Shown one piece after another: positions 34,115-61,383 of a stretch of 64,000 bases of DNA. A model generated the notes under the pieces. That model was not told the origin of the DNA, did no database searches, and saw only the letters and a program-made list of their open reading frames with translations. The position numbers and the translations under genes are program-made. This DNA is from Salinibacterium sp. ZJ450 (lineage in GTDB: Bacteria > Actinomycetota > Actinomycetes > Actinomycetales > Microbacteriaceae). Within the stretch, counting starts at the first letter, position 1; each line of letters starts with the position of its first letter. Location: the NCBI RefSeq assembly GCF_011751885.2, contig NZ_CP061771.1:3534001-3598000 (forward strand), read 5' to 3'.

Positions 34115-34699
34115 TCAGACACGAGTCGGCTGCCGCACGATCTCGATCGCCTGTTCAGCCCACTCGATCCGATGCGTCGCGGTGTCGATGAGGTAGTCGA
34201 AAACATGCGTCTTCAGCTGCACGATTCGGTCGTGATCGGCCGGGTCGCGACGCGCCAGTCGCTCCCGAATCAACGGAGTGTCAATGGCAGCCAAGCGTGC
34301 CCTGTGCGCGGCCCATTGCTCGAGCCGCTCGCGCACCTCTGCGATATGGGCGCGCAGCACGGCCTCGGCGTCGGCCGCGGGGATCGTGTCGAGAAACAGG
34401 GTCTGCAACAGGAACGGATCGCGCACGCTCGGCTCGCTATGCGGCTCGGCCAGCCAGCGGCGCAGCTCGGTCAGCCCCGCCTCGGTGATCGAGTACGAGG
34501 TGCGCTTCAGCTTGCTGCCGCGCACCTGTTCCTCGCCCGAAATCAGTCCCTCTTTGGCCATCTTCGCCAGCAAGGGGTAGATCTGGCTCTGCGGCGCGGT
34601 CCACACCCAGCGGGCGGACGCCTCAAAGAACTGGGTGAGCTCATAACCGCTCATTTCGCGTGCCTCAAGCACGCCGAGCACCGCATGCTGCAGGGACAT
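34115..34699 (-). CDS. PadR-family regulator of the aldolase-dioxygenase genes
   Basis: The protein is 194 residues: winged-helix PadR domain (LQHAVLGVLEAREMSGYELTQFF...APQSQIYPLLAKMAKEGLI) and a C-terminal helical domain. It is divergent from the ring-cleavage genes, with a shared operator between them. ATG 34699 is chosen because TAAGAT (34712-34707) lies 7 nt upstream; the ATG at 34708 is inside that box. PadR proteins often respond to phenolic acids, a good fit to this context. Confidence 0.9.
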   Translation of the reverse strand: MSLQHAVLGVLEAREMSGYELTQFFEASARWVWTAPQSQIYPLLAKMAKEGLISGEEQVRGSKLKRTSYSITEAGLTELRRWLAEPHSEPSVRDPFLLQTLFLDTIPAADAEAVLRAHIAEVRERLEQWAAHRARLAAIDTPLIRERLARRDPADHDRIVQLKTHVFDYLIDTATHRIEWAEQAIEIVRQPTRV

Positions 34700-34706
34700 G
34701 GGCCTC

Positions 34707-34758
34707 ATCTTAGGCACAAACACTCCTACATTGACATTTCTATTCATACATGTAGGCT
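34707..34758. promoter_or_regulatory. Divergent padR / ring-cleavage promoter with operator
   Basis: On the plus strand TTGACA (34731-34736), a 16-bp spacer and TAGGCT (34753-34758) form a strong promoter. The inverted repeat CCTACAT (34725-34731) / ATGTAGG (34750-34756) encloses it, with TACATGTA (34747-34754) inside. On the minus strand TAAGAT serves padR. This is the expected PadR-type ATGTA/TACAT operator. Confidence 0.7.
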
Positions 34759-34793
34759 GACAACGTTTTACAGAGTCGTAGAGAGGTACGCAG

Positions 34794-35462
34794 ATGTCGC
34801 TGAACCACCCGTCCGAGCTGCGCGAAGCCGGCGCCGTTGTCGCCGCGTTCGGCCTCTCCGATGCCTTCGGCCACCTGTCAGTGCGCTCCTCCGCGCACGC
34901 TCTCACTATCACCCCGCCGGTTCCTCTCTCGCTGCTCACCGACCAGGACGAATACCCGGAGCTCAGCCTGGACGCCACCGAGCTTCCGCCGGCCGCCCCG
35001 AAGGAAGCCTGGATCCACCTCGCGATCGCCGAAGCGCGACCCGAGGTCGGCGCGATCTGCCGCGCTCAGCCCCCGGCCGTCGCCGCTCTGGTCGCGGCGG
35101 GCCAGCCCGTGCTGGCGCTGAACGGGCACGGCTCGTTCCTCGGCGAGACGGTGCCGGTGTACCCGGACTCCCGCCTGATCCGCGATGCGGATAGCGCCAG
35201 CCGCGTGAGCGAGACTCTCGGCGAATCAACAGCGGTCATCCTGCGCGGCAACGGGGCGGTGACCACCGGGCCCGACATCGCCAACGCTGTCGCGCTGATG
35301 TGGGTGCTCGAGAAGACAGCCCAGCTGAACCTCGCCGCACTCGGTGCCGGCACGCCGCATCCGCTGCCCCTCGACGAACAGTCCTGGTGGCGCGATCGTG
35401 CCACCGAACTGCTGCCTAGGATCTACACCTACCTCACCAACACCTACCGAAAGGGTCAATGA
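34794..35462 (+). CDS. Class II aldolase/adducin-fold protein lacking the usual metal ligands
   Basis: The protein is 222 residues. The fold is recognisable from FGHLSVRS, the KEAWIH segment (Glu71) and LRGNGAVTTGPD. In zinc enzymes of the family an HxH pair and a later His bind metal; here residues 90-92 read R-A-Q and residue 153 is Asn. The otnC product at 60751-61383 keeps all three (His93, His95, His160). Family members include aromatic-acid decarboxylases (CmtD, PhtC). GAGAGG precedes the ATG; the stop overlaps the dioxygenase start. Activity is doubtful or altered. Confidence 0.8.
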   Translation: MSLNHPSELREAGAVVAAFGLSDAFGHLSVRSSAHALTITPPVPLSLLTDQDEYPELSLDATELPPAAPKEAWIHLAIAEARPEVGAICRAQPPAVAALVAAGQPVLALNGHGSFLGETVPVYPDSRLIRDADSASRVSETLGESTAVILRGNGAVTTGPDIANAVALMWVLEKTAQLNLAALGAGTPHPLPLDEQSWWRDRATELLPRIYTYLTNTYRKGQ

Positions 35463-36367
35463 TGATCGAAATCACCGACATCGCGTATGTGCGATCAGGA
35501 TCGGCGGATGTCGACGCGGCTGTGCGTTTCGCCGTGGACATCGTCGGCATGCAGTACGCCGGCAACGACAACGGCGTGCACTACCTCCGCGCCGACCACC
35601 GTCACCACTGCCTCGCCTTCGTCGAGGGTGAAGCGGGCGTACTCAGCTCCGGCCTCACGCTGAAAGACGAGGACGCCCTGCGGCTTGCCGAGACCGAACT
35701 CACGCTCGCGGGCGTGAAGGTCGTGCGCGGCACCACCGAAGAGGCGCGCTCACGCCGCGTTAGCAGTTTCATCAGCTTCGACGACCCCTGGGGCAACCGC
35801 TTCGACCTGGTCGTCGGCCAGGTCTACGACGCCGACACGGTGCACTGGGGGCGGCAGGCCGGCATCATCGAGTTCGGGCACCTTTGCGTCGACGCGCCGG
35901 ATGTCAAGGCGGCCTACGAGTGGTGGAGCTCGCTCTTCAATATCAAGATCAGCGACTGGATCGGCGATTGGGCGGCGCTCATGCGCTTCGACCCGGTGCA
36001 CCACAAGCTGGCCGTGTTCAAGGGCAGCGAGCCAGGGCTCTGCCACATCAACTTCCAGGTCGAGTCGCTCGACGACGTGATGCGCAGCTGGAACTTCCTG
36101 CTCGAGCAGGGCGTCGAGATCGAGCAGGGCCCGGGCCGCCACCCGCAGTCCACCGCGATATTCCTCTACTTCAAGGGGCCGGAGGGGCTCACCTACGAGT
36201 ACTCGTACGGCGTGCGCCGGATCGAGGATGACGCCACTTGGCAGCCGCGCACCTTCGACCCGCTGCACCCTAAGTCGATCGACATGTGGGGTGGCGTCAC
36301 GCAGCGCGTGCAGACGCAGAAGCAGATCCGTCGTCCGCTCGACTCGTCCGAACTGCAGGAGGCGTAA
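35459..36367 (+). CDS. Type I extradiol dioxygenase (VOC)
   Basis: The protein is 302 residues with two VOC domains. The second carries the Fe ligands His141 (EFGHLCVDAP), His196 (LCHINFQVES) and Glu247 (GLTYEYSYGV), the BphC/HpaD pattern; His181/182 may help catalysis. It cleaves a catechol-type ring next to the hydroxyls. The ATGA overlap with the aldolase-like gene and TAATG overlap with the tautomerase show one tightly coupled unit. The substrate is unknown: a substituted or carboxylated catechol is inferred. Confidence 0.87.
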   Translation: MMIEITDIAYVRSGSADVDAAVRFAVDIVGMQYAGNDNGVHYLRADHRHHCLAFVEGEAGVLSSGLTLKDEDALRLAETELTLAGVKVVRGTTEEARSRRVSSFISFDDPWGNRFDLVVGQVYDADTVHWGRQAGIIEFGHLCVDAPDVKAAYEWWSSLFNIKISDWIGDWAALMRFDPVHHKLAVFKGSEPGLCHINFQVESLDDVMRSWNFLLEQGVEIEQGPGRHPQSTAIFLYFKGPEGLTYEYSYGVRRIEDDATWQPRTFDPLHPKSIDMWGGVTQRVQTQKQIRRPLDSSELQEA

Positions 36368-36561
36368 TGCCGCTCGTTGAGATCAGCATCGCCGAAGGGC
36401 GTACCGAAGAGCAGTTGCGCGACCTGATGGGCCGTGTGCACACAGCCATTGAGGAGTGGGGTGCGCCGGGCCAGAGTGTCCGCGTGCTGGTACGGGAGGT
36501 GCCGCCCGCGCTGTGGCTGTCCGGTGGAGTAACCCTCGCCGAGAAGGCCGCCGCCAAGTAA
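36367..36561 (+). CDS. 4-Oxalocrotonate tautomerase-family protein
   Basis: The protein is 64 residues, the classic 4-OT size. Catalytic Pro1 follows the initiator Met (MPLVEISIAEGRTEEQL), with Arg residues near positions 12 and 40. It likely turns 2-hydroxymuconate into the oxo form for the decarboxylase encoded at 43253. The start overlaps the dioxygenase stop by one base. Confidence 0.9.
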   Translation: MPLVEISIAEGRTEEQLRDLMGRVHTAIEEWGAPGQSVRVLVREVPPALWLSGGVTLAEKAAAK

Positions 36562-36569
36562 CCACCTCG

Positions 36570-36614
36570 CTGGTTGAGGAGCGCCCGAGCGAAGCGAGGC
36601 CGCGTCGCGAAATC
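36570..36614. repeat. Dispersed GGTTGAGGAGCG-type repeat
   Basis: The segment begins CTGGTTGAGGAGCGCCCGAG and runs to GTCGCGAAATC. It matches a short repeat that I recall as common between genes in this family. It contains partial self-complementarity (GCGCCCGAGC...). It is directly followed by a terminator. Confidence 0.5.
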
Positions 36615-36617
36615 ACG

Positions 36618-36646
36618 GGCCCGCAGTCGAACGACTGCGGGCCTTT
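36618..36646 (+). terminator. Terminator after the ring-cleavage operon
   Basis: A perfect 12-bp stem GGCCCGCAGTCG/CGACTGCGGGCC (36618-36629 with 36632-36643) has a two-base loop and is followed by TTT. Confidence 0.85.
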
Positions 36647-36749
36647 CGCGTGCTCGGGGGCCTTGCCGCCGCAATCTCCCTGCGCGTAGCCTCGTGGCGA
36701 ACTCGCGCGACGGCGCCGAGCCGAGGGTGCTGAGGCAATTGGAGGCATC

Positions 36750-38102
36750 ATGGCCACTGACACCACCGCCGCGGCCGCCATCCGAGACCGGCTCGACGGA
36801 ATTGTGCTTCTGCCGGGCGAACCCGGGTACGACACCGCACGTACCGTCTGGAACGCGATGATCGACCGGCGGCCGCGCATGGTCGTCCGCTGCGCAAGCG
36901 CCCGGGACGTGGTGACGGCGATCCGTACCGCCCGTGAGCTGGACGTCGAGATCGGCGTGAAGTGTGGCGGCCACAGCGTGGTCGGCCACTCGGTCCCGGA
37001 TGGCGGGCTGATGATCGACCTCACCCCGATGGGTGGCGTGCGGATAGACCCGGAGCGTCGGACAGCCCACGTGCAGGGAGGCGCATTGCTCCGCGCGCTC
37101 GACCGCGAGGCGCAGCAGCACGGGCTGGCCACCACGGCCGGCAACGTCTCGCACACCGGCGTCGGTGGCCTGACCCTCGGTGGCGGGATGGGCTGGCTGG
37201 CGCGCCGGTTCGGCCTCACCTGCGACAACGTCGCCTCCTTCGAGATGGTGACCGCCGACGGCGAGGTCGTGCGGGCCAGCGAGGACGAGAACCCCGACCT
37301 GGACTGGGGGCTGCGCGGCGGAGGCGGCAACTTCGGCGTGGTGACCGACTTCGAGCTGCGGCTGCACCCGGTAGACGGCCGCACCCTGTTCGCTGCGCTG
37401 TCCTTTCCGCTTGAGGAGGGTCAGTCGGTGCTCAGCCGCTGGCGCGACCTCAGTGCCGAGGCGCCGCGTGAGGCGACCTTCACCGCGTTGATCACGCCGG
37501 ACGGCACCGTGAGCGTCGGCTTCATCTGGGTCGGCGACCCGGACCAGGGTCGGCTGTTACTGCCGTCACTGCGTGCGCTGGGTCGGCCCACGTCGGAGCA
37601 ACTGATCGAGAAGTCGTACGTCGACCTGCAGCGAATGGACGATACGGGCCGCCGGGGCGGAACGGCGCGCCGGTATTGGAAGGGCCACTACCTCAAGTCC
37701 CTGCAGGAGGGGGCGATCGAGGCCCTGCTCATGCGGGGCACCGCCGACGGTCACGGCGACATGCCCCCGAATGCGTCCCTGCAGGCCTACGGCGGCGCCA
37801 TCGCCGACGTCGCCGACGAGGCCACTGCCTTCAGCCACCGCGACACGCTGTTCGAGTACGTCGCGTCAACCGGGTGGACCGACCCGGCCGAGGATGAGAC
37901 CCGCATGGCGGGCGCCCGTCGCAGTGCGGCGGCGCTGGAGCCATTCGCCAGCGGGCTGTACGTCAACGCGATCGCCGACGAGGGAGCCGCCGGCGTCCGG
38001 CGCGCGTACCCGCCCGGCAAGCTCGGACGACTCCAAACGCTGAAAGCCAAGTACGACCCGCACAACGTGTTCCACCTCAACGCGAACATCACGCCCGCCT
38101 GA
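36750..38102 (+). CDS. BBE-type FAD-linked oxidase
   Basis: The protein is 450 residues. It has an N-terminal PCMH FAD domain with covalent-flavin His75 in CGGHSVVGHS, VSHTGVGGLTLGGGMGW, RGGGGNFGVVTDF, and a C-terminal berberine-bridge segment KYDPHNVFHLNANI. The second Cys of bicovalent enzymes is absent, so single attachment is likely. These oxidases act on alcohols, sugars or alkaloid-like substrates with O2. GGAGG lies upstream of the ATG. It may oxidise a side chain of the island's substrate; that is inference. Confidence 0.88.
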   Translation: MATDTTAAAAIRDRLDGIVLLPGEPGYDTARTVWNAMIDRRPRMVVRCASARDVVTAIRTARELDVEIGVKCGGHSVVGHSVPDGGLMIDLTPMGGVRIDPERRTAHVQGGALLRALDREAQQHGLATTAGNVSHTGVGGLTLGGGMGWLARRFGLTCDNVASFEMVTADGEVVRASEDENPDLDWGLRGGGGNFGVVTDFELRLHPVDGRTLFAALSFPLEEGQSVLSRWRDLSAEAPREATFTALITPDGTVSVGFIWVGDPDQGRLLLPSLRALGRPTSEQLIEKSYVDLQRMDDTGRRGGTARRYWKGHYLKSLQEGAIEALLMRGTADGHGDMPPNASLQAYGGAIADVADEATAFSHRDTLFEYVASTGWTDPAEDETRMAGARRSAAALEPFASGLYVNAIADEGAAGVRRAYPPGKLGRLQTLKAKYDPHNVFHLNANITPA

Positions 38103-38118
38103 AGTCAGAAAAGCCGAA

Positions 38119-38159
38119 AACCCGGGCCGATCGACAGCATCTGTCGATCGACCCGGGTT
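38119..38159. terminator. Bidirectional terminator between convergent genes
   Basis: Arms 38119-38137 and 38141-38159 (AACCCGGG...CGATCGACAG) pair over 19 positions with one mismatch and a three-base loop. They serve the FAD oxidase and the aldehyde dehydrogenase operon. Confidence 0.85.
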
Positions 38160-38183
38160 CACGACATCCGGAATCGCGTCAGA

Positions 38184-39656
38184 TCAGTGCGCTCCGGTGA
38201 GCACCACGGGCGGGTGCGCGACCGGCGGCTCCAGCTGCATCACGACGGCCTTCGGCTCGGTGAAGAACTCCCGGCTGAAGTTGCCGCCCTCACGGCCGAC
38301 TCCGGATGCCCCGACCCCGCCGAACGGGGCGCGCAGGTCGCGAATGAAGAAGCAGTTCACCCACACCGTGCCGACCCGGAGAGCACCGGAGACGCGGTGC
38401 GCCTTGACCAGGTTCTCGGTGAACAGCATGGCGTTCAGGCCGTACGGGCTGTCGTTGACCTCGTGCACGACCTCTTCTTCGGTGTCGAACGGGGTGATGG
38501 TGACGATCGGGCCGAAGATCTCTTCGCGCTGGTGCTTCGCATCGCGGTCGAGACCGGTGACCACGGTGGGCTTCACGATCCAGCCGTCGCCGAGTCCGCC
38601 GGTGACCTTGGTGCCGCCTTCCTCCTCGATGGTGTCGAAGTAGCTGCGCACCTTGGTGTAATGCTCCTCGCTGGCGAGCGGGCCGATCTGGGTGGCCGGG
38701 TCCTTCGGGTCACCGATCACCATGGCGTCGGCGGCCGCGGTGAAGCGCTCGATGAACTCGTCAAAGATCGGTCGTTCGACGTAGATGCGGCTGCCGGCGA
38801 GGCAGACCTGCCCGGCGTTGGTGAAGATGGCGCGGATCGACCAGCTGATCGCGTTGTCGAGATCGGCGTCAGCGAACACCACGTTCGCGCCCTTGCCGCC
38901 GAGCTCGAGGCTCACCGGGGTCAGGTTGGCGGCGGCGGCGCGGGCGATGATCCGGCCGGTGTTCGATTCGCCGGTGAACGTGATGCGGTCGACATCCGGA
39001 TGCTGCGTGAGCCGCTCGCCCACCGAGTCCGGGCCGTACCCGTGGACGACGTTGAAGACGCCGGCCGGGATGCCGGCCTCGAGCGCGAGCCGGGCAAGGA
39101 TGGTGGCGGATGCCGGGGAGTCTTCGGCCGGCTTCAGCACGACCGTGTTGCCCCAGGCGAGCGCCGGAGCGACCTTCCAGCTCTCGAGCATCATCGGGAA
39201 GTTCCACGGCGCGATCGCGGCGACAACTCCGGCGGCGTCGTAGCGCGTGTAGGTGTGGTGGCCGGAGTCCATCGGCAGCACGTCGGCCGGGGTCAGGTGC
39301 GCGTGGTCGGCGAAGAAGCGGAAGTTCTGCGCGGTGCGGGCGACGTCGTTGCCGAGGCTCTGCGTGATGGGCTTGCCCATATCACGGGTGTCGGCCATGG
39401 CGAGTTCCTCGCCGTGCTCGATGATCAGGTCGGCGAACTTGTTGATCAGCTCGCGGCGCTTGCCGGCCGTCATCCGGGGCCACGGGCCCTCATCGAAGGC
39501 GCGGCGGGCGGCGGCGACGGCCAGATCGGCGTCGTCCTGGCCGCCGAGGGCGATCTCGGCCCATGGTTCGCGAGTGTATGGATCGATGCTCGGGAAGGTC
39601 GCCCCGGAAATGGACTGGACTTCCTGGCCATCGATGATGTGACCGAATGTCTGCAT
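38184..39656 (-). CDS. 2-Hydroxymuconic semialdehyde dehydrogenase-like ALDH
   Basis: The protein is 490 residues. The NAD-dependent aldehyde dehydrogenase signature is complete: Asn152 in APWNFP, Glu251 in LELGGKG and Cys285 in NAGQVCLAG. FIRDLRAPFGGVGASGVGREGG near the C-terminus resembles DmpC/AmnC-type hydroxymuconic semialdehyde dehydrogenases. It would oxidise the ring-cleavage aldehyde. It is the last gene of the minus-strand operon, directly after the ABC substrate-binding protein. Confidence 0.88.
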   Translation of the reverse strand: MQTFGHIIDGQEVQSISGATFPSIDPYTREPWAEIALGGQDDADLAVAAARRAFDEGPWPRMTAGKRRELINKFADLIIEHGEELAMADTRDMGKPITQSLGNDVARTAQNFRFFADHAHLTPADVLPMDSGHHTYTRYDAAGVVAAIAPWNFPMMLESWKVAPALAWGNTVVLKPAEDSPASATILARLALEAGIPAGVFNVVHGYGPDSVGERLTQHPDVDRITFTGESNTGRIIARAAAANLTPVSLELGGKGANVVFADADLDNAISWSIRAIFTNAGQVCLAGSRIYVERPIFDEFIERFTAAADAMVIGDPKDPATQIGPLASEEHYTKVRSYFDTIEEEGGTKVTGGLGDGWIVKPTVVTGLDRDAKHQREEIFGPIVTITPFDTEEEVVHEVNDSPYGLNAMLFTENLVKAHRVSGALRVGTVWVNCFFIRDLRAPFGGVGASGVGREGGNFSREFFTEPKAVVMQLEPPVAHPPVVLTGAH

Positions 39657-39723
39657 GGCCTGGGGCCCTTTCTTGGTGTGCCGGGCGGGCGTTTCCGCCC
39701 GCCCGGCGGGGTGGTGAAGGGTG

Positions 39724-40740
39724 TTACTTGCCGGGGACGTAGACCATCTTGTCCATGTCGACCGGTGCCGAGATCGCGCCCTGATCGACCATGATGTCGT
39801 TCCAGACCTCGAGGTTCTTGGCGCTGGCAGCGCCGGCGACCCACTTGGGCAGCTTGAGCTTGGCGGCGAGCTCCGGCGTGGTGCTCGAGTAGGTCGGGAC
39901 GATCTCGCGAGCGGCATCCGGGTTCTCGGCGAGCAGCGCGTTGGCCTTCTCCATGGCGCGGATGAACGCGGCAACCGTGTTCGGGTTTGCCTTGACGAAC
40001 TCGGCGGTCATGCCGAGACCGGACAGCGGCACTCCGTCGGTCGGGCCGGAGAAGTTGGCGAACAGCTTCTTGGCGCCCGAGGCCTCAGCAGCGGTCTGGA
40101 ACGGTTCGACGACCCAGATGGCGTCCACGCCGCCGGACTGCAGGGTCGGCACCATGTCGGGGAACGGCAGTTCCTGGAACTGGACCTTGCTGACGTCGAC
40201 GCCGGCTTCGTCCATCAGGACCTTGATGGTCAGCTCGCCGGTGTTCTTCAGCGTGTTGACGGCGACCTTCTTGCCCTCGAGGTCGTTGATCGAGTCAATG
40301 CCGGAGTCGGCCTTAACCCAGACGCCGTTGCTCTCCTCGTTACCGCGCACACCCTCGGCGACGATGTTGATGTCGATGCCGCCGGCCTGCGCGAGCAGGA
40401 ACGACGGGTAGGTTGCGAACGAGGCCTGGATGTCGCCGGCGATCATCGCGGGCACCAGCGCGGCGCCGCCCTGGGCGGGCTGCGGGGTGACGGTGAGGCC
40501 CTCTTCTTCGAAGAAGCCCTCGGCGACGGCGATGTACACCGATGCCTGGTCGGCGACCGGGGTGATACCAACGATGAGCTCGCTGATCTCCGGCTTGCCG
40601 TTGCCTGCCGGAGCGGGTTCGTCGGCGGCCGGGGCTGTGCTGCTGCCGCCGGAACAGGCGGCGAGGCTGAGCGCCAGCGCGGATGCCGCGGCGACGCCGA
40701 GCCAGGTCTTCTTGGGGCGGATTTGGGATGTGATGGGCAC
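39724..40740 (-). CDS. ABC transporter substrate-binding lipoprotein, NitT/TauT type
   Basis: The protein is 338 residues. A lipoprotein signal ends at ALALSLAACS (Cys29). The mature part has VGITPVADQASVYIAVAEGFFEEEGL, the opening typical of NMT1/ThiY- and SsuA-like proteins, and later LPFPDMVPTLQSGGVDAIWVVEPF. GGAGG stands before the GTG start. Given the neighbouring enzymes it likely binds the aromatic substrate of this island rather than nitrate or taurine; this is inferred. Confidence 0.88.
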   Translation of the reverse strand: MPITSQIRPKKTWLGVAAASALALSLAACSGGSSTAPAADEPAPAGNGKPEISELIVGITPVADQASVYIAVAEGFFEEEGLTVTPQPAQGGAALVPAMIAGDIQASFATYPSFLLAQAGGIDINIVAEGVRGNEESNGVWVKADSGIDSINDLEGKKVAVNTLKNTGELTIKVLMDEAGVDVSKVQFQELPFPDMVPTLQSGGVDAIWVVEPFQTAAEASGAKKLFANFSGPTDGVPLSGLGMTAEFVKANPNTVAAFIRAMEKANALLAENPDAAREIVPTYSSTTPELAAKLKLPKWVAGAASAKNLEVWNDIMVDQGAISAPVDMDKMVYVPGK

Positions 40741-40787
40741 GTTTTCCTCCTTGAATGGTGCGGTGCTATTGGTGGTGCTGGGGGCTG

Positions 40788-41582
40788 TTAGGCGACGTCT
40801 GCCACGGCGGCGACGTCGTCGTCCTTGGGGTGACGGATGAGCCGCGCGACTTCGCCGCGCAGGCGAATGAACTCCGGGTCTTCCTTCGTCTCGATCTGGT
40901 CGCGGGTGTCCGAGAGCGGGATGTCGAGGGTGGTGACGACGAATGTCGGCGGCTTGGACAGCACGACAACACGGTCGGCCAGGTAGACGCTCTCGTCGAT
41001 GTCGTGGGTGACGAAGAGGATGGTCATGTTGAACTTCTTCTTCACCGACAGCACGAGGTCTTCGAGGTCTTCGCGGGTCTGCGCGTCGACCGACGCGAAG
41101 GGCTCGTCCATCAGCAGGATCTTTGGGCGGTAGGCCAGTGCGCGAGCGATGGCCACGCGCTGCTGCATGCCGCCAGACAGCTGCGACGGGAACCGGTCTT
41201 CGAAGCCGGAGAGTCCCACGGCGACAAGCGACTCGGAAACCCGCTCGTCGAGGTCGGCCTTACTGAGGCCAAGTCGCTTGAGGGGGAAGCGGACGTTCGC
41301 CTCGACGCTGAGCCAGGGGAACAGCGAGCCGCGGTAGTCCTGGAACACCATCGCGAGGCCTTCCGGTACCGCGGTGATCCGGTCGCCCAGGAAGCGCAGG
41401 TCGCCGCCGGTCGGCCGCATGAGTCCTGCCATCGTGCGCAGCAGGGTGGTCTTGCCGCAGCCGGACGGGCCGACGATGGAGACCAGCTCGCCGGGTTCGA
41501 CCGAGAATGTGATGTCCTTCAGCGCCAGGTGCGCCTTCGCGCCGGTGCCGTAGGTGTGAGTGAGGTTTTTGACGTCAAGCAT
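40788..41582 (-). CDS. ABC transporter ATPase, NitT/TauT type
   Basis: The protein is 264 residues. Walker A is GPSGCGKTTLL, the signature is LSGGMQQRVAIARAL, Walker B is ILLMDEPFASVD, and the switch is FVTHDIDES. It energises the importer formed with the two permeases encoded at 41599 and 42456. The gap to the permease is 16 bp. Confidence 0.95.
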   Translation of the reverse strand: MLDVKNLTHTYGTGAKAHLALKDITFSVEPGELVSIVGPSGCGKTTLLRTMAGLMRPTGGDLRFLGDRITAVPEGLAMVFQDYRGSLFPWLSVEANVRFPLKRLGLSKADLDERVSESLVAVGLSGFEDRFPSQLSGGMQQRVAIARALAYRPKILLMDEPFASVDAQTREDLEDLVLSVKKKFNMTILFVTHDIDESVYLADRVVVLSKPPTFVVTTLDIPLSDTRDQIETKEDPEFIRLRGEVARLIRHPKDDDVAAVADVA

Positions 41583-41598
41583 GATTTTTCCTTACGGA

Positions 41599-42456
41599 CT
41601 AGGCGGTTTCGCGACCGGAGCTGCGCTGCCAGGCGAGGATGCGGCGCTCGATGACGGTGAGCACCGTGTTGAGGAGGAAGCCGATGATGCCGAGCAGCAC
41701 GATTCCGGCCCACATGTCGAGGAATCCGAAGCCACGCTGCGCCTGCACGATCGAGAAGCCGATGCCGCTGGAGGCGGCCACCATCTCGGAGATGACCATG
41801 AGGATCAGGCCGAGCGAGAGGCTGGTGCGCACACCGGCGAGGATCTTCGGGGCGGCACCCGGCAGCACGATGCGGGTGAGCCGGCCGACGACGCCGATCC
41901 GGAACACCGTTGCCGTCTCGTACTTGAGTTCCTCGATGGAGCGCACGCCCTCGATGGTGTTCAGCAGGATCGGCCAGGCCGTGCCGAACGCGATCAGCAG
42001 CACCCGCATCTCGTCGCCGGTGCCGAACACCACGAGGAAGATCGGGATCAGTGCCGGCGGCGGAACCGCCCGCAGGAACTGGATGATCGGGTCGATGTAA
42101 TCACCGAACTTGCGGCTGAGCCCGATCGCTACGCCGACGGCGATCGCGAGTACCACCGAGATGCCGAAGCCGAGCAGCACCCGGCCAAGGCTCGGGATGA
42201 CGTCGTTCTGCATGCTCGGGGTGAGCACGCCGTTCGCGCCGGGCAGCCACAGCAGCGCGGCTCGCTCGAAGATCAGGAACGGCTGGGGGAAGAACGGTGA
42301 GGGGAAGGCCACCGTCGCCACCTGCCATGCGGTGATCAACACGACCAGCACGACCCAGCGCAGGGCGAAGCTGCCCCACCACTGACGTTTTGCGGCCTGC
42401 TGTTCGCGACTGGCGCGGGGCCGGTTGGCGGTGGTTACCGCGGTTGTGAGGGCCAT
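41599..42456 (-). CDS. ABC transporter permease, NitT/TauT type
   Basis: The protein is 285 residues with about six membrane helices. The EAA loop region is seen in FRAVPPPALIPIFLVVFGTGDEMRVLLIAFGTAWPILLNTIEGVRSI and GVRTSLSLGLILMVISEM. Its start shares a base with the previous permease stop. Two different permeases imply a heterodimeric channel. Confidence 0.93.
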   Translation of the reverse strand: MALTTAVTTANRPRASREQQAAKRQWWGSFALRWVVLVVLITAWQVATVAFPSPFFPQPFLIFERAALLWLPGANGVLTPSMQNDVIPSLGRVLLGFGISVVLAIAVGVAIGLSRKFGDYIDPIIQFLRAVPPPALIPIFLVVFGTGDEMRVLLIAFGTAWPILLNTIEGVRSIEELKYETATVFRIGVVGRLTRIVLPGAAPKILAGVRTSLSLGLILMVISEMVAASSGIGFSIVQAQRGFGFLDMWAGIVLLGIIGFLLNTVLTVIERRILAWQRSSGRETA

Positions 42457-43256
42457 TACGCCACCCCCTCCTTCTTCCAGGCGAAGATCTTCTTCTCGAT
42501 GGCCACCAGCACGCCGTTGACCAGCATTCCGAGGAGCCCGGCGACGATGGTGCCGGCGAACACCAGCGAGGTGTCACCGCCGCCCGAACTGATCCGCAGG
42601 ATGTATGAGCCGATGCCGCTGGCGGAGCCGGCCAGCAGCTCGGCACTGATGGTGACGATCAGGGCGATCGCGGCAGAGATGCGAACGCCGGTCGCGGCCA
42701 GCGGTGCGGCATAGGGCAGGCTGACCCGGGCCAGGATGCCGACGCGGCTGAGCCGGAAGGTGCGGGCCGTTTCCTTGGCGATGGGGTCAACATCCCGCAC
42801 GCCGTAGACGGTGTTGAAGAAGATCGGCCACAGCGAGGCGTACACCACGAGCGCGATCTTCATGTCGGTTCCCAGACCGAAGACGAGGATGGCGAGCGGG
42901 ATCAGCGCAACCGAGGGGATCGGCCGCATGAACTCGACCACGGCGGATGACGCCTCGTAGGCGATCCGGAAGGAGCCCAGCACCAGACCGGCCGGCACAG
43001 CGATCACGATGGCGATGCCGAGGCCGATAGCCCAGGCGGTCAGCGTCGAGCCGACGTCACCGAGGAACGCGGGGTTGACGATCAGGCCGGCGGTGTCGAG
43101 CAGCACCCGCGACATCGGCGGCAGGATGTTTTCCGGAATGATCCCGAGCCGGCTCACCAGTTCCGCCAGCACGAGCAGAACAACGACCCCGATCAGGCCG
43201 CGAGTGAGCTTGGGGCTCACCCGTCGACGGACGGGCAGGGTGGCGACGGCACTCAT
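42456..43256 (-). CDS. ABC transporter permease, NitT/TauT type
   Basis: The protein is 266 residues and paralogous to the permease encoded at 41599. FMRPIPSVALIPLAILVFGLGTDMKIALVVYASLWPIFFNTVYGVRDVD and GVRISAAIALIVTISAELLAG are the cytoplasmic-loop landmarks. Its ATG overlaps the stop of the upstream decarboxylase gene by four bases, tying transport and catabolism together. Confidence 0.93.
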   Translation of the reverse strand: MSAVATLPVRRRVSPKLTRGLIGVVVLLVLAELVSRLGIIPENILPPMSRVLLDTAGLIVNPAFLGDVGSTLTAWAIGLGIAIVIAVPAGLVLGSFRIAYEASSAVVEFMRPIPSVALIPLAILVFGLGTDMKIALVVYASLWPIFFNTVYGVRDVDPIAKETARTFRLSRVGILARVSLPYAAPLAATGVRISAAIALIVTISAELLAGSASGIGSYILRISSGGGDTSLVFAGTIVAGLLGMLVNGVLVAIEKKIFAWKKEGVA

Positions 43257-44050
43257 GCCGACCTCCTTACGGGTGCGGTGATCTGGCCGAGCGAGGTGAA
43301 CTCGACCGACACCTCGTCGCCGTCATTGATGAACACGGCGTCGGTCATGCCGCCGGTGAGCACGATGGATCCGGCTTCGATGGCCTCGCCGCGGGCGGCC
43401 AGCGCGTTGGCGGCCAGCGCCAGTGCTTCGGCCGGGTGACCCTGCACCGCGGCGCCGGTTGCCGTGTCGACCACAACGCCGTTGATGCGCAGCACGCAGG
43501 CCTCGAGGGCAAGGTCCAGTCCGATGGGGGAGACGGATGTCGCGCCGACGATGAACCGGGCGCTGGAGGCGTTATCGGCCACCACGTCGGGCATCGCGAA
43601 GCTGAAGTCGCGGTAACGGCTGTCGATGACTTCGAGCCCGGCGTGCACCGACGCGACGGCGCGCATGGCCGAGGCGGCAGTGACGCCGGGGCCCTGCAGC
43701 CGTTCGCCGAGCACGAAGACGATCTCCGGCTCCACGCGCGGGTGGATGAGCTCGTCCAGGGCAATCGGCACGCCGGCCTCGAGCACCATTTTGTCGGTGA
43801 TCACGGCGGTCAGTGGTGAGTCGATGCCCATCCGCTGCTGCTTCGCGCGGGAGGTGAGGCCGAGCTTCACGCCGACGACGGTGTGCCCGTCGGCCTTCTT
43901 ATGTTCGATCAGCACCCGCTGCGCGGCGTAGCCGGTTTCCAGGTCGAGGCCTGGCCATTCGTCGGTGATGCGGCCGCGGTCGGTGCGGCTCGCTTCAGCG
44001 TCGAGCAGGATGTCGGCGACCTTCTCGGTCGTCCATTCCGTTGTCGTCAT
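43253..44050 (-). CDS. 4-Oxalocrotonate decarboxylase-like protein
   Basis: The protein is 265 residues of the hydratase/decarboxylase (FAH-related) family. VGVKLGLTSRAKQQRMGIDSPL, HPRVEPEIVFVLGERLQGPG (acidic metal ligands) and LEVIDSRYRDFSFAMPDVVADNASSARF fit DmpH/XylI-type decarboxylases. It would decarboxylate 4-oxalocrotonate to 2-oxopent-4-enoate. The protein pairs with the hydratase encoded just upstream, as in other meta pathways where they form a complex. Four-base overlaps on both sides. Confidence 0.85.
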   Translation of the reverse strand: MTTTEWTTEKVADILLDAEASRTDRGRITDEWPGLDLETGYAAQRVLIEHKKADGHTVVGVKLGLTSRAKQQRMGIDSPLTAVITDKMVLEAGVPIALDELIHPRVEPEIVFVLGERLQGPGVTAASAMRAVASVHAGLEVIDSRYRDFSFAMPDVVADNASSARFIVGATSVSPIGLDLALEACVLRINGVVVDTATGAAVQGHPAEALALAANALAARGEAIEAGSIVLTGGMTDAVFINDGDEVSVEFTSLGQITAPVRRSA

Positions 44051-44850
44051 GCTGCGGTCTCCTTCGACGCTGGGCTGAAACGAGCGCTGACTGAACCGAG
44101 GTGCGCGAACGTGGCGGTGACCACATCGCCGGGCGCGACCGGAATGGCGGCGGTGATCGATCCGGCCATCACGACCGAGCCGGCCTCGAGGGTCTGCCCG
44201 AGCGAGCCGAGCATGTTCGCCAGCCAGAGCACGCCGTTGAGGGGGTGCCCGAGCACGGCGGCGCCGGCGCCGGTGGCGACGACGTCGCCGTTCTTCACGA
44301 GCACGCAGCCGGCGAGGCCGAGGTCCGCGACATCCAGCCGCACCGGGCGGGTGCCGAGCACCAGCGCTCCGGATGACGCGTTGTCGGCGACCGTGTCGGA
44401 CAGCGTGATCTTCCAGTCCGCGACGCGGGAGTCGATGATCTCGAGCGAGGCGATCGCGTAGTCGACCGCGCCGATGACATCGGCGACGCTCAGGCCGGGA
44501 CCGCGCAGGTCGTGCTTCAGCACGAACGAGATCTCCGGTTCGATCTTCGGGCTGATGAACGCGCCGGCGTCGATGGCCGTGCCGTCCAGGATCATGTCGC
44601 TGAACACGTGCCCGAAGTCGGGCTGGTCGACGCCGAGCTGTCGCTGCATGGCGAGGGACGTGAGCCCGACCTTGTAGCCGGCGACGCGTCGGCCGGAGTT
44701 CTTCCAGTGCTCGACCTGGTGCAGCTGCACCCGGTAGGCATCTTCGATCCGCAGGTCGGGGTGCGCTTCAGTCAGCGGGCGCACCGGCTCGCGGCTGTCA
44801 TACGCCGCAAGCAGCGTGTCGCCGAGATCGGCGATATCAGTGTCGTTCAT
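44047..44850 (-). CDS. 2-Oxopent-4-enoate hydratase-like protein
   Basis: The protein is 267 residues and a paralogue of the neighbouring decarboxylase. GYKVGLTSLAMQRQLGVDQPDFG, SPKIEPEISFVLKHDLRGPG and LEIIDSRVADWKITLSDTVADNASS are typical of DmpE/MhpD hydratases. It adds water to give 4-hydroxy-2-oxovalerate. The ATG has GAGG upstream. It is the first gene of the GntR-controlled operon. Confidence 0.86.
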   Translation of the reverse strand: MNDTDIADLGDTLLAAYDSREPVRPLTEAHPDLRIEDAYRVQLHQVEHWKNSGRRVAGYKVGLTSLAMQRQLGVDQPDFGHVFSDMILDGTAIDAGAFISPKIEPEISFVLKHDLRGPGLSVADVIGAVDYAIASLEIIDSRVADWKITLSDTVADNASSGALVLGTRPVRLDVADLGLAGCVLVKNGDVVATGAGAAVLGHPLNGVLWLANMLGSLGQTLEAGSVVMAGSITAAIPVAPGDVVTATFAHLGSVSARFSPASKETAA

Positions 44851-45010: not shown

Positions 45011-45754
45011 TTAATTCAGGGTGTCGCTCATGCGTTCTGCGTATGGCGCATGCCGCTCGGCGGCGATGCGAGCACGCCCGGGGCTGCCCGACGCGATCGC
45101 GTCGACCAGTTCGCGGTGCAGTGCCCAGTTCTCTTGCCACGATTCATGGAATTGTGGGTCGGGCGCCACGTGTTTCAGCGACTGGCGGGCGGTGTCCAGC
45201 AGGGAGATGTAGATGGTGCGGAGCATTTCGTTGCTCGACATCTTGGCGATCTCCTCGTGCAGCTGCCAGTTCTGGCGCAGGTATTCGGCCGGGTCATCGC
45301 GTAGCTGGCCCATCCTGGTGACGATTCTCTCCAGCAGCGCCAATCCCTCACGATCCGCCTGAATGGCGGCATGCGCGGCCAGCGGGATCTCCAGCGCGTT
45401 CCGGATCTCCAGCCCGTCGGCCACCGGCAGGGAGTTGCTGTCCAGGTCGAGAATCAGGTGACTGAGCCGAAGGTGCGCCGACGGCTGCGCCACAAAGATG
45501 CCACCCTGCGGCCCCGGGCGGGTCTCCACCAGTCCGCGACTCTCCAGCAGTCGGATGGCCTCGTTGAGCGTGGATGCCGCGACACCGAACTGCTCGCGCA
45601 GGTCGGACTTGCGCCCCAGTCGGGATCCCGGCGCCAGCTGCTGCCGGGTGATCATCTCGCTGACCTGATGCGCCACGGACTCGGACCGCGAGACGCGGTC
45701 GTCCTGTAGGCGCTCGAAGGTGACGCCGCTGTCGACGTCGGGCTGCTCAATCAT
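45011..45754 (-). CDS. GntR-family (FadR subgroup) regulator
   Basis: The protein is 247 residues. The N-terminal winged helix spans LAPGSRLGRKSDLREQFGVAASTLNEAIRLLESRGLVETR. The C-terminal FCD ligand domain has metal-type His residues in WQLHEEIAKM and ERHAPYA. It lies 160 bp upstream of the hydratase operon in the same direction. ATG 45754 has TACGAT exactly 6 nt upstream, so the gene is probably leaderless; the TTG two codons earlier is less likely. Confidence 0.9.
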   Translation of the reverse strand: MIEQPDVDSGVTFERLQDDRVSRSESVAHQVSEMITRQQLAPGSRLGRKSDLREQFGVAASTLNEAIRLLESRGLVETRPGPQGGIFVAQPSAHLRLSHLILDLDSNSLPVADGLEIRNALEIPLAAHAAIQADREGLALLERIVTRMGQLRDDPAEYLRQNWQLHEEIAKMSSNEMLRTIYISLLDTARQSLKHVAPDPQFHESWQENWALHRELVDAIASGSPGRARIAAERHAPYAERMSDTLN

Positions 45755-45760
45755 TCCCAA

Positions 45761-57268: not shown

Positions 57269-57304
57269 TTGACCCGCCCCCGCACACCGACCTACTCTGG
57301 GGCC
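57269..57304 (+). promoter_or_regulatory. Promoter of the second BBE gene
   Basis: TTGACC (57269-57274), an 18-bp spacer and TACTCT (57293-57298) are followed after 6 nt (GGGGCC) by GTG 57305. A leaderless transcript is likely. Confidence 0.7.
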
Positions 57305-58687
57305 GTGACCAGCGTTGCTTCGGCGCGACAACTGGACGCCACGGCATTCCGCGGCGACGTCATCGGCCCGGCCGACGACGGATACGACACCCATCGCGCG
57401 GTGTGGAACGGGGCCTTCGACCGGCATCCGGCCGTGATCATCCGCTGCGCGGGCGTCGCCGACGTCATCGCCGCGGTGAACTTCGCCACCTCGAGCGGCC
57501 TGCCGATCGCCGTGCGCAGCGGCGGGCACTCCTTCGCCGGCCTCTCGGTCGCCGACGACGCCGTGATGATCGACCTGTCGCCGATGCGAGGCGTGCGGGT
57601 CGACCCGCAGCGGCGCACCGCCCGGGTGCAGGCGGGCGTGCTGCTCGGCGAGCTGGACCACGAGACTCAGGCCTTCGGGCTGGCCGTGCCGTCCGGCGTG
57701 GTCACGCACACCGGCGTCGCCGGGCTCACCCTCGGCGGCGGAATCGGCTGGACCATGCGCCACCACGGCCTGACCATCGACCAGCTGCGCCGCGTCGACG
57801 TCGTCACCGCCGACGGCAGCTTCGTCCAGGCGAGCGCGGACGAGAACGCCGACTTGTTCTGGGGAATCCGCGGCGGCGGAGGCAACTTCGGCATCGTCAC
57901 CGAGTTCGAGTTCCACTGCGTGCCGCTCGGCCCGCAGGTGCTCGCCGGGCCGGTGATCTGGCCGATGCAGCGCTCGGTCGAGGTGATGCGGTTCTACCGC
58001 GAGTGGTGCGCCGACGCACCGGATGAGCTGATGACCGCGATCGTGCACCGCAAGGCGCCGCCGCTGCCGATGATCCCCAGCGAATTGCACGGCACGCCGG
58101 TGGTGATGGTGATCCCGTGCTGGAGCGGAGACATCGAGGCGGGGGAATCGTTCATCCGCCCGCTCCGCCGGTTCGGCAACCCGGCCGTTGACGCGTGCGC
58201 GCCCACGCCCTACCTCGCGCATCAGGCGATGTTTGACCCCAGCTTCCCCGCCGGTCGCCGGTACTACACCCGGAGCTGCGACGTCGACGAACTCAGCGAC
58301 GAGGTGATCGAGATCACGGCGGAGCACTCGCTGCGCGTCGCATCGCCGCTCACCTCCTTCCCGATCTGGCAGCGCGGTGGCGCCTTGGCCCGCGTCGGCG
58401 ACGACGAGACCGCATTCGGTGGCCGCACCGCGGGCTTCACCTACAACATCACCGGCAGCACCGAGGCCGCCGCCGGCTTCGACGAGGAACGCGACTGGGT
58501 GCGCGAATTCTGGTCGGCGCTTCAGCCATGGCACGCCGGGGTCTACGTCAATTTCCTCGGCGACGAGGGCACCGACCGGGTGCGGCAGGCCTACGGGCCG
58601 GCCAAGTACGAGCGGCTGCGGCTGCTCAAGGCGAAGTACGACCCGCAGAACGTGTTCCGTCTCAACCAGAACATCGCACCGAGCTAG
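57305..58687 (+). CDS. BBE-type FAD-linked oxidase, second copy
   Basis: The protein is 460 residues. The PCMH domain has His75 in RSGGHSFAGL for covalent FAD, VTHTGVAGLTLGGGIGW and RGGGGNFGIVTEF. The C-terminal KYDPQNVFRLNQNI completes the BBE fold. It is paralogous to the protein encoded at 36750 but stands alone, away from the catabolic island. GTG 57305 fits the promoter; the frame open to 57269 would begin inside the -35 box. Confidence 0.88.
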   Translation: MTSVASARQLDATAFRGDVIGPADDGYDTHRAVWNGAFDRHPAVIIRCAGVADVIAAVNFATSSGLPIAVRSGGHSFAGLSVADDAVMIDLSPMRGVRVDPQRRTARVQAGVLLGELDHETQAFGLAVPSGVVTHTGVAGLTLGGGIGWTMRHHGLTIDQLRRVDVVTADGSFVQASADENADLFWGIRGGGGNFGIVTEFEFHCVPLGPQVLAGPVIWPMQRSVEVMRFYREWCADAPDELMTAIVHRKAPPLPMIPSELHGTPVVMVIPCWSGDIEAGESFIRPLRRFGNPAVDACAPTPYLAHQAMFDPSFPAGRRYYTRSCDVDELSDEVIEITAEHSLRVASPLTSFPIWQRGGALARVGDDETAFGGRTAGFTYNITGSTEAAAGFDEERDWVREFWSALQPWHAGVYVNFLGDEGTDRVRQAYGPAKYERLRLLKAKYDPQNVFRLNQNIAPS

Positions 58688-59654: not shown

Positions 59655-60754
59655 CCAGCTCCCGCTACGCCACACCCGGATTCCTGCAGGCCACCTGGCT
59701 CGTTGCCGAACGGGAGGTGAAGATGCGGCTGCGCAGCAAGGTGTTCCTGATCTCCAGCGGCATCCTGTTGCTCATCGTGCTCGCCGGCGTGGTGCTGCCG
59801 CCGCTGTTCGGCGCAAACTCGTCGCTGCCGAAGGTCGCCGCGGTCGGCTCGGCGGTCGCGGTCGCCGAGCAGACCGGTGCACTCGAGGTCACCGAGGCGG
59901 CGTCGGTCGCCGAGGCGGAGGATCTGGTGCGCACCGAAGAGGTCGAGGCGGCGCTGGTGCCCGCATCCGGCGGGGATTCGCCGTTGGATGTCTCGGTGAT
60001 CGCCCTTGAGGAGGCGCCGTCGTCGATCGTCGGCCTGTTCAGCGTCGCGCCGTCCGTCGAGCTGCTCGACCCATCCGGTGAGAATCCCGGGCTGGTCTAC
60101 CTGGTGGCGCTCGCGTTCGGCATGATCTTCTTCGTGTCGGCGCTGACCTTCGGCTCGATCATCGCGCAGAGCGTCGTCGAGGAGAAGCAGACGCGCATTG
60201 TGGAGATCCTGATGGCCACCGTGCCGGTGCGGGTGCTGCTCGCCGGCAAGATCGTCGGCAACAGCCTGCTCGCGTTCGGCCAGATCCTTCTGATCGCGGT
60301 CGTGACCGGGGTGGGCATGCTGGCATCCGGTCAGGACCTGCTGCTCGCCGACGTCGGGCCGTCGATCGTCTGGTTCGTGGTGTTCTTCCTGTTCGGCTTC
60401 GTGCTGCTGGCCGCGCTGTTCGCGGCGACCGGCGCGATGGTGTCGCGCCAGGAGGACATCGGCTCGACCACCACGCCGGTGACGATGCTGGTGATGATCC
60501 CGTACTTCCTGATCATCTTCTTCTACGACAACCCGCTGGTGCTGACGATCATGTCGTACGTGCCGTTCTCCGCGCCGGTTGGGATGCCGATGCGGGTGTT
60601 CCTCGGCGACGCGCTGTGGTGGGAGCCGCTGGTCTCGCTGGTGGTGCTGGTGCTCTCGACCCTCGTGGTGATTGCCCTCGGATCGCGCATCTACTCGAAC
60701 TCGCTGCTTCGCACCGGCGCGCGAGTCACCCTGAAGGAAGCGCTGCGCGGCTAG
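59651..60754 (+). CDS. ABC-2-type exporter permease (NatB-like)
   Basis: The protein is 367 residues. One N-terminal helix, a large external domain (about residues 50-150), then five helices with IIAQSVVEEKQTRIVEILMATVPVRVLLAGKIVGNSLLAFGQI, the ABC2 membrane signature. It forms the membrane part of the exporter. The GTG overlaps the ATPase stop by four bases. Confidence 0.9.
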   Translation: MTSSRYATPGFLQATWLVAEREVKMRLRSKVFLISSGILLLIVLAGVVLPPLFGANSSLPKVAAVGSAVAVAEQTGALEVTEAASVAEAEDLVRTEEVEAALVPASGGDSPLDVSVIALEEAPSSIVGLFSVAPSVELLDPSGENPGLVYLVALAFGMIFFVSALTFGSIIAQSVVEEKQTRIVEILMATVPVRVLLAGKIVGNSLLAFGQILLIAVVTGVGMLASGQDLLLADVGPSIVWFVVFFLFGFVLLAALFAATGAMVSRQEDIGSTTTPVTMLVMIPYFLIIFFYDNPLVLTIMSYVPFSAPVGMPMRVFLGDALWWEPLVSLVVLVLSTLVVIALGSRIYSNSLLRTGARVTLKEALRG

Positions 60755-61383
60755 GCCTGCGGCGGCGCCAAGGCGGCCGCCTGCTCCACGGTGAGTGGGC
60801 GAGCCGCCCGGCCGTCGAGGAGCAGCTGCAGCCGTGCGGTGGCTTCGAGCTCCTCGATCGCGTCCATCGCCGCGTCCAGGGTCAACCCCGAGACGATGGC
60901 GCCATGGTTGCTCAGCAGCATCGCCGAATGGGATGCCGCGGTGTGCTCAGCGAGTGGGCCGAGGGCCGCATCCCCTGGCGCGTGGTACGGGAGAAGGGCG
61001 GCGCGGCCGACGCGCATCGCGAAGTACGCCGTTAGCGGCGGGATGGCATTCGTGGGATCGAGCCCGGCAAGGCACGACACGGCCGTGCTGTACGTCGAGT
61101 GAGTGTGCACTACAGCTGTGTCCTGCGGCCGTGCCCGCAGGATCGCGGCGTGTAGGAAGCTCTCCTTCGACGGTTTTCGGCCGGAAACGTGGGCGCCGGA
61201 ACGATCGATGACCGAGAGGTCCGCCGCCTGAACTGTCCCGAGGCTGCTTCCGGTGGGCGTGACGTAGATCTGCTCCCCGACGCGCACGCTGACATTGCCG
61301 GTCCTGCCGTGCGCGAGTCCGCGGCTGAATAGGGAGTGGGCGGCGCTCACGATGTCGGCCCGAGCGCGTGCCTCGGCGGTCAT
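60751..61383 (-). CDS. otnC: 3-Oxo-tetronate 4-phosphate decarboxylase-like class II aldolase
   Basis: The protein is 210 residues. The zinc-ligand set is complete: Glu74 in PSKESFLH, His93 and His95 in VVHTHSTY and His160 in LLSNHGAIVSG. In the otn pathway it decarboxylates the phosphorylated keto acid to a triose phosphate. Its start overlaps the otnK stop by four bases. It is convergent with the ABC exporter genes, stop overlapping stop. Confidence 0.85.
   Translation of the reverse strand: MTAEARARADIVSAAHSLFSRGLAHGRTGNVSVRVGEQIYVTPTGSSLGTVQAADLSVIDRSGAHVSGRKPSKESFLHAAILRARPQDTAVVHTHSTYSTAVSCLAGLDPTNAIPPLTAYFAMRVGRAALLPYHAPGDAALGPLAEHTAASHSAMLLSNHGAIVSGLTLDAAMDAIEELEATARLQLLLDGRAARPLTVEQAAALAPPQA

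Follow-up and report, generated by a model that had tools for sequence, protein, structure and literature searches.

The removal of a carboxyl group after extradiol ring cleavage, and the use of the class II aldolase fold for this reaction, are already known. DhbB of P. reinekei MT1 belongs to the class II aldolases and decarboxylates the ring-cleavage product of 2,3-dihydroxybenzoate (PMC6362003), and the dhb genes are named there as dioxygenase (A), class II aldolase (B), hydratase (D), tautomerase (F), acetaldehyde dehydrogenase (G) and aldolase (H). CmtD of P. putida F1 and B. xenovorans LB400 is the HCOMODA decarboxylase of the p-cumate pathway, acting after ring cleavage by CmtC (PMC5224996). 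The ring-cleavage product is a stable beta-keto acid, the decarboxylation of which requires an enzyme (PMC12442788), and in Pseudomonas PTH10 post-cleavage decarboxylation is carried out by OpaD, a member of the metallo-dependent hydrolase superfamily. Within the class II aldolase fold, the decarboxylase HMPDdc (2z7b) is Mn(II)-dependent (PMC11841055) and the aldolase domain of adducin serves the cytoskeleton as a binding domain and has no catalytic activity (PMC12599920). The accessible part of the description of the 2-aminophenol microcompartment locus (PMC10470539) mentions no class II aldolase gene.

We compared these systems with a locus of Salinibacterium sp. ZJ450 that encodes a class II aldolase-fold protein (ALD) directly ahead of an extradiol dioxygenase (Table 1); the window referred to below is the whole stretch of 64,000 nucleotides analysed. 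Both the profile match (PF00596, E = 1.3e-21, above the gathering score) and the predicted fold place ALD in the class II aldolase/adducin superfamily, as a complete, full-length, stand-alone protein of 222 amino acids with a single domain spanning its length. Other PF00596 matches in the genome were the otnC product and one protein at 99 kb, and no second ALD copy was found in it. The ALD stop codon shares four nucleotides (ATGA) with the start of the dioxygenase gene, an overlap that 10 of the 12 orthologous loci preserve, confirming the tight translational coupling proposed in the first-pass annotation; the dioxygenase gene in turn overlaps that of the 4-oxalocrotonate tautomerase (TAATG). 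DmpG and DmpF, both over cut-off, are encoded adjacently at 295-297 kb of the same genome. The two FAD-linked oxidase genes look like paralogues, and the one that comes after the tautomerase gene was not found in the orthologous modules, save at one edge of L035, where a weak match covers part of it. Synonymous divergence from the Mycetocola locus (L032) was ~0.9-1.0 for the PadR and ALD genes vs ~0.5 for those of the dioxygenase and dehydrogenase; the locus may therefore consist of two halves (34115-35462 and 35462-39677) with different histories.

Table 1. Features of the window considered in this analysis
Feature	Position	Strand	Remarks
PadR-type regulator	34115..34708	-	divergent; most orthologous loci have a homologue beside ALD
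Class II aldolase-fold protein (ALD)	34794..35462	+	222 aa; E71, H75, R90-A91-Q92, R130, R151, N153; proposed DhbB/CmtD-like decarboxylase
Type I (VOC) extradiol dioxygenase	35459..36367	+	probable 2-His-1-Glu iron site H141, H196, E247
4-oxalocrotonate tautomerase-like protein	36367..36561	+	64 aa
FAD-linked oxidase	36750..38102		
2-hydroxymuconic semialdehyde dehydrogenase-like	38184..39656	-	TIGR03216 545 bits, below cut-off 693; start set at MQTFG methionine
SsuABC-like ABC transporter: binding protein, ATPase, two permeases	39724..43256	-	assigned by reading sequence
DmpH-like 2-oxo-3-hexenedioate (4-oxalocrotonate) decarboxylase	43253..44050	-	252 bits, below cut-off
DmpE-like 2-oxopent-4-enoate hydratase	44047..44850	-	282 bits, below cut-off
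GntR-type regulator	45011..45760	-	assigned by reading sequence; homologues in several orthologous loci
FAD-linked oxidase	57269..58687		
otnC product	60751..61383	-	HTH and NHG intact

Alignment to solved relatives (2z7b, 4xxf and others) placed R90-A91-Q92 of ALD on the HxH pair, N153 on the third His and E71 on the conserved Glu of the family, bearing out the residue assignments made in the first-pass annotation. Its statement that all zinc ligands are missing was accurate for the three histidines and a slight overstatement otherwise, as Glu71 is retained and its counterpart in FucA is also a zinc ligand. ALD thus lacks the three metal-binding histidines of FucA-type metal-dependent class II aldolases, carrying R90, Q92 and N153 instead. 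In the same alignment the otnC product of the window retained its metal histidines, as had been claimed, and R90, Q92 and N153 were invariant in the window protein and its 12 orthologues (13/13); chance or misalignment is ruled out by this conservation together with the His-type control. Neither alternative ligands in place nor a homologue proven to be a zinc aldolase was found.

The 12 orthologues, obtained from a scan of species genomes, are actinobacterial (Mycetocola, Raineyella, Micromonospora, Parafrankia, Georgenia, Nocardiopsis and Nonomuraea), show 50-76% identity over the matched part and all share CRAQP...RGNG. More distant relatives with R90 and N153, encoded by plasmids from Cupriavidus, Caballeronia, Tistrella, Sphingopyxis, Novosphingobium, Sphingobium and Streptomyces, differ at position 92, which is Met, Leu or Ile. 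Among 79 family proteins, a set collected with a profile of the Arg/Asn branch and not a superfamily census, R90 was paired with N153 in 30 of 30 and H90 with H153 in 49 of 49. A maximum-likelihood tree of these proteins, built without the motif columns, grouped the 30 R90/N153 proteins as one branch (support 99/98), with the 49 His-type proteins on the other side. Six of the 30 retain one histidine (R-x-H...N), perhaps an intermediate state, and monophyly of the other 24 was left unsettled by the tree. E71, H75, R90, R130, R151, N153 and R209 were invariant in 24 aligned Arg/Asn members spanning Actinomycetota and Pseudomonadota. The best NCBIfam profile for ALD was PhtC (NF053537), at 65.9 bits well below the curated cut-off of 200, and no equivalog at or above cut-off was found for any Arg/Asn member scanned. 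Comparison of the window and Mycetocola copies gave a dN/dS of ~0.21, indicating purifying selection, and this, with the conservation of the replaced residues, rules out a pseudogene; judged from sequence, ALD is a conserved class, neither a decayed nor a damaged copy.

The AlphaFold2 model of ALD (13-sequence alignment, mean pLDDT 94.6) showed a high-confidence class II aldolase fold, for which the best PDB match (Foldseek and VIA-align) was the decarboxylase 2z7b (Z 29.9, rmsd 1.8, 220 residues), ahead of an Fe(II) pyruvic oxime dioxygenase and fuculose aldolases (Z 25-27). When the third metal histidine of pyruvic oxime dioxygenase is changed to Asn, the tetramer remains folded and activity is abolished (PMC5216522). 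The Asn of ALD is therefore the residue that inactivates this Fe(II) relative, and by this analogy ALD is unlikely to run the metal chemistry of the family. The same change weighs against ALD being a decarboxylase and yet a metalloenzyme, with the metal held by other residues (e.g. E71 with H75, or H110/H112) or chelated by the substrate. E71 and H75 are indeed invariant and His110 is clade-specific (27 of 30 members), but H27 and H75 are about equally conserved in His-triad relatives, which argues against a role as replacement ligands, and the window and Mycetocola proteins are without H110, having N110 with H112, which may be the shifted equivalent of the clade His110. Retention of a metal in this form is thus unlikely.

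Gene neighbourhoods tied the altered site to ring cleavage. ALD adjoins a dioxygenase in all 12 orthologous loci, most of which also contain a semialdehyde dehydrogenase, a tautomerase, DmpH/DmpE-like enzymes or an ABC transporter; homologues of the SsuABC-like transporter, likely an aromatic-acid importer, occur in several. An extradiol dioxygenase lay within 1.5 kb of 20 of 23 Arg/Asn relatives (window left out) vs 1 of 48 His-type proteins (Fisher p 1.6e-13, a descriptive value that ignores relatedness); one Arg/Asn member (L065) had no adjacent dioxygenase. In Parafrankia, a single run encodes ALD, dioxygenase, hydratase, acetaldehyde dehydrogenase, aldolase, 4-oxalocrotonate decarboxylase, tautomerase and semialdehyde dehydrogenase (DmpF and DmpG assigned by reading sequence). 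The order on plasmid pBB1 of Cupriavidus necator N-1 is VOC-ALD-ALDH-hydratase-4OD-4OT-DmpF-DmpG, which fits dhbA-H as far as those genes are named in PMC6362003, with the roles of dhbC and dhbE as we infer them. This plasmid carries two dhb-like cluster copies ~135 kb apart (L103, 5947-12840, and L044), in one of which an MFS transporter gene is inserted after ALD.

A positional exchange points to the step involved. Tistrella has the order VOC-VOC-ALD-dehydrogenase, and Pseudosulfitobacter plasmids (L101, 5114-7954) have VOC-VOC-amidohydrolase-hydratase, a ring-cleavage operon that is otherwise alike but in which an amidohydrolase, next to a dioxygenase of 40% identity, occupies the place of ALD. 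By analogy, this exchange is a match for the DhbB/OpaD pair of decarboxylases, amidohydrolases being the second family known for the step. In Paraburkholderia (L102, L104), dioxygenases ~43% identical to that of the window sit beside an apparent MFS transporter, and no decarboxylase of either kind was found nearby. The exchange also bears on the reading of ALD as a catalytically inactive protein that partners or regulates the dioxygenase, comparable to adducin domains after loss of the His triad. Such a role would accord with the translational coupling and has the adducin precedent (PMC12599920), yet the polar pocket (E71, H75, R90, R130, R151, N153) is invariant, the partner dioxygenases come from two unrelated families, and in one operon ALD is replaced by an enzyme of an unrelated decarboxylase-containing family; we regard it as very improbable.

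ALD was present with the semialdehyde dehydrogenase branch (L044, L051, L103) as well as with the ring-product hydrolase branch (L045, L046, L047, L052), the Caballeronia relative L052 sitting in a cmt-like operon. It therefore most likely acts upstream of the dehydrogenase/hydrolase branch point. This distribution also makes it improbable that ALD converts the ring-cleavage product in a different way, for example by tautomerization, hydrolysis or aldol cleavage: the fold does host aldolases, epimerases, decarboxylases and dioxygenases, but ALD is accompanied by dedicated genes for a tautomerase, a hydrolase, a hydratase and an aldolase.

The plain catechol meta-cleavage pathway uses every gene of this set but ALD. 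As the sole gene beyond that pathway, ALD is thus the candidate for the extra decarboxylation needed with a carboxylated catechol. We consider it probable that ALD is a DhbB/CmtD-like decarboxylase acting after the extradiol dioxygenase, with an Arg/Asn/Glu pocket in place of the metal. This reading is built on the computed residue replacement, one-branch grouping, fold, operon and gene-set conservation and amidohydrolase positional swap, from which we infer the reaction, substrate and metal-free mechanism. The metal-independent decarboxylase put forward in the first-pass annotation accordingly stands as a prediction well supported by the active-site replacement, operon logic, dhb-like gene set and amidohydrolase swap. 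Its alternatives of a hydrolase or a regulatory subunit found no support, many relatives having a separate hydrolase gene and the pocket residues being conserved as in an enzyme.

In the proposed pathway, the dioxygenase would cleave a carboxylated catechol, most likely 2,3-dihydroxybenzoate, to carboxy-2-hydroxymuconate semialdehyde, a beta-keto acid when in the keto form. ALD would take CO2 off this compound. The resulting 2-hydroxymuconate semialdehyde could be processed further by enzymes of the locus (dehydrogenase, tautomerase, 4-oxalocrotonate decarboxylase, hydratase), and the aldolase/acylating dehydrogenase pair encoded elsewhere in the genome would complete the route to pyruvate and acetyl-CoA. 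The presence of the dehydrogenase, tautomerase and 4-oxalocrotonate decarboxylase in actinobacterial loci suggests an aldehyde product and hence, as substrate, a carboxycatechol that bears no 4-alkyl group. The simplest candidate is 2,3-dihydroxybenzoate; 2,3-cleavage of protocatechuate is a possible alternative. Decarboxylation of a beta-keto acid does not in principle need a metal, only stabilization of the enolate. R90 and N153 at the old ligand positions, together with R151 (the neighbour of N153 on the same strand), R130, E71 and H75, may hold the substrate carboxylate and keto oxygen, and the same putative pocket could stabilize the dienolate once CO2 leaves and then reprotonate it. These invariant residues would be suitably placed provided that ALD has the usual pocket of its family.

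No extradiol dioxygenase was nearby in any of the six R-x-H...N sisters (L095-L097, L068-L074), so the R90/N153-type change is not specific to ring cleavage. The sisters, in which the active site is altered in a similar manner, probably belong to a nitrogen-heterocycle pathway; the L095-L097 clusters contain genes for DUF1989, amidohydrolase, isochorismatase-type hydrolase, aldehyde dehydrogenase or NMT1-type transporter proteins. On balance, we slightly favour an ancestor that gave rise to a branch of the superfamily with metal-free catalysis across Actinomycetota and Pseudomonadota, serving at least two kinds of pathway, ring cleavage and the probable nitrogen-heterocycle pathway. No description of a fixed loss of the metal site across a whole branch was found in the searchable literature, outside of which the primary DhbB paper lies. 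If this is true, a fold regarded as metal-dependent includes a whole branch that catalyses without metal, which would offer a clean test system for Arg/Asn replacement of a metal site. In many degradation clusters, two residues (R90, N153) and the gene neighbours would then suffice to identify likely decarboxylases of ring-cleavage products among genes labelled just 'class II aldolase/adducin family protein', and ALD-bearing actinobacteria would be predicted to degrade a carboxylated catechol.

Compared with the known systems, ALD shares with the adducin aldolase domain the fold and the loss of the His triad, and is not the N-terminal domain of a longer multidomain protein. The closest solved fold, HMPDdc (3-hydroxy-2-methylpyridine-4,5-dicarboxylate decarboxylase; ~26% identity), differs in its intact HTH and RHG and its Mn(II) dependence. 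PhtC (3,4-dihydroxyphthalate decarboxylase) has the same fold and is likewise a decarboxylase of aromatic catabolism, but retains HAH...RGHG where ALD has R90-A91-Q92 and N153, and works before ring opening. The likeness to DhbB and CmtD rests on gene order, the sequences compared being those of the gene-order relatives L044, L103 and L052, and ALD has the context of this type, an adjacent extradiol dioxygenase and downstream meta-cleavage genes. CmtD carries out the step proposed for ALD, after ring cleavage and on an alkyl-substituted product, whereas the window locus has a semialdehyde dehydrogenase in place of the hydrolase. DhbB resembles ALD in belonging to the class II aldolase family and in lying beside a type I extradiol dioxygenase with similar downstream genes (PMC6362003).
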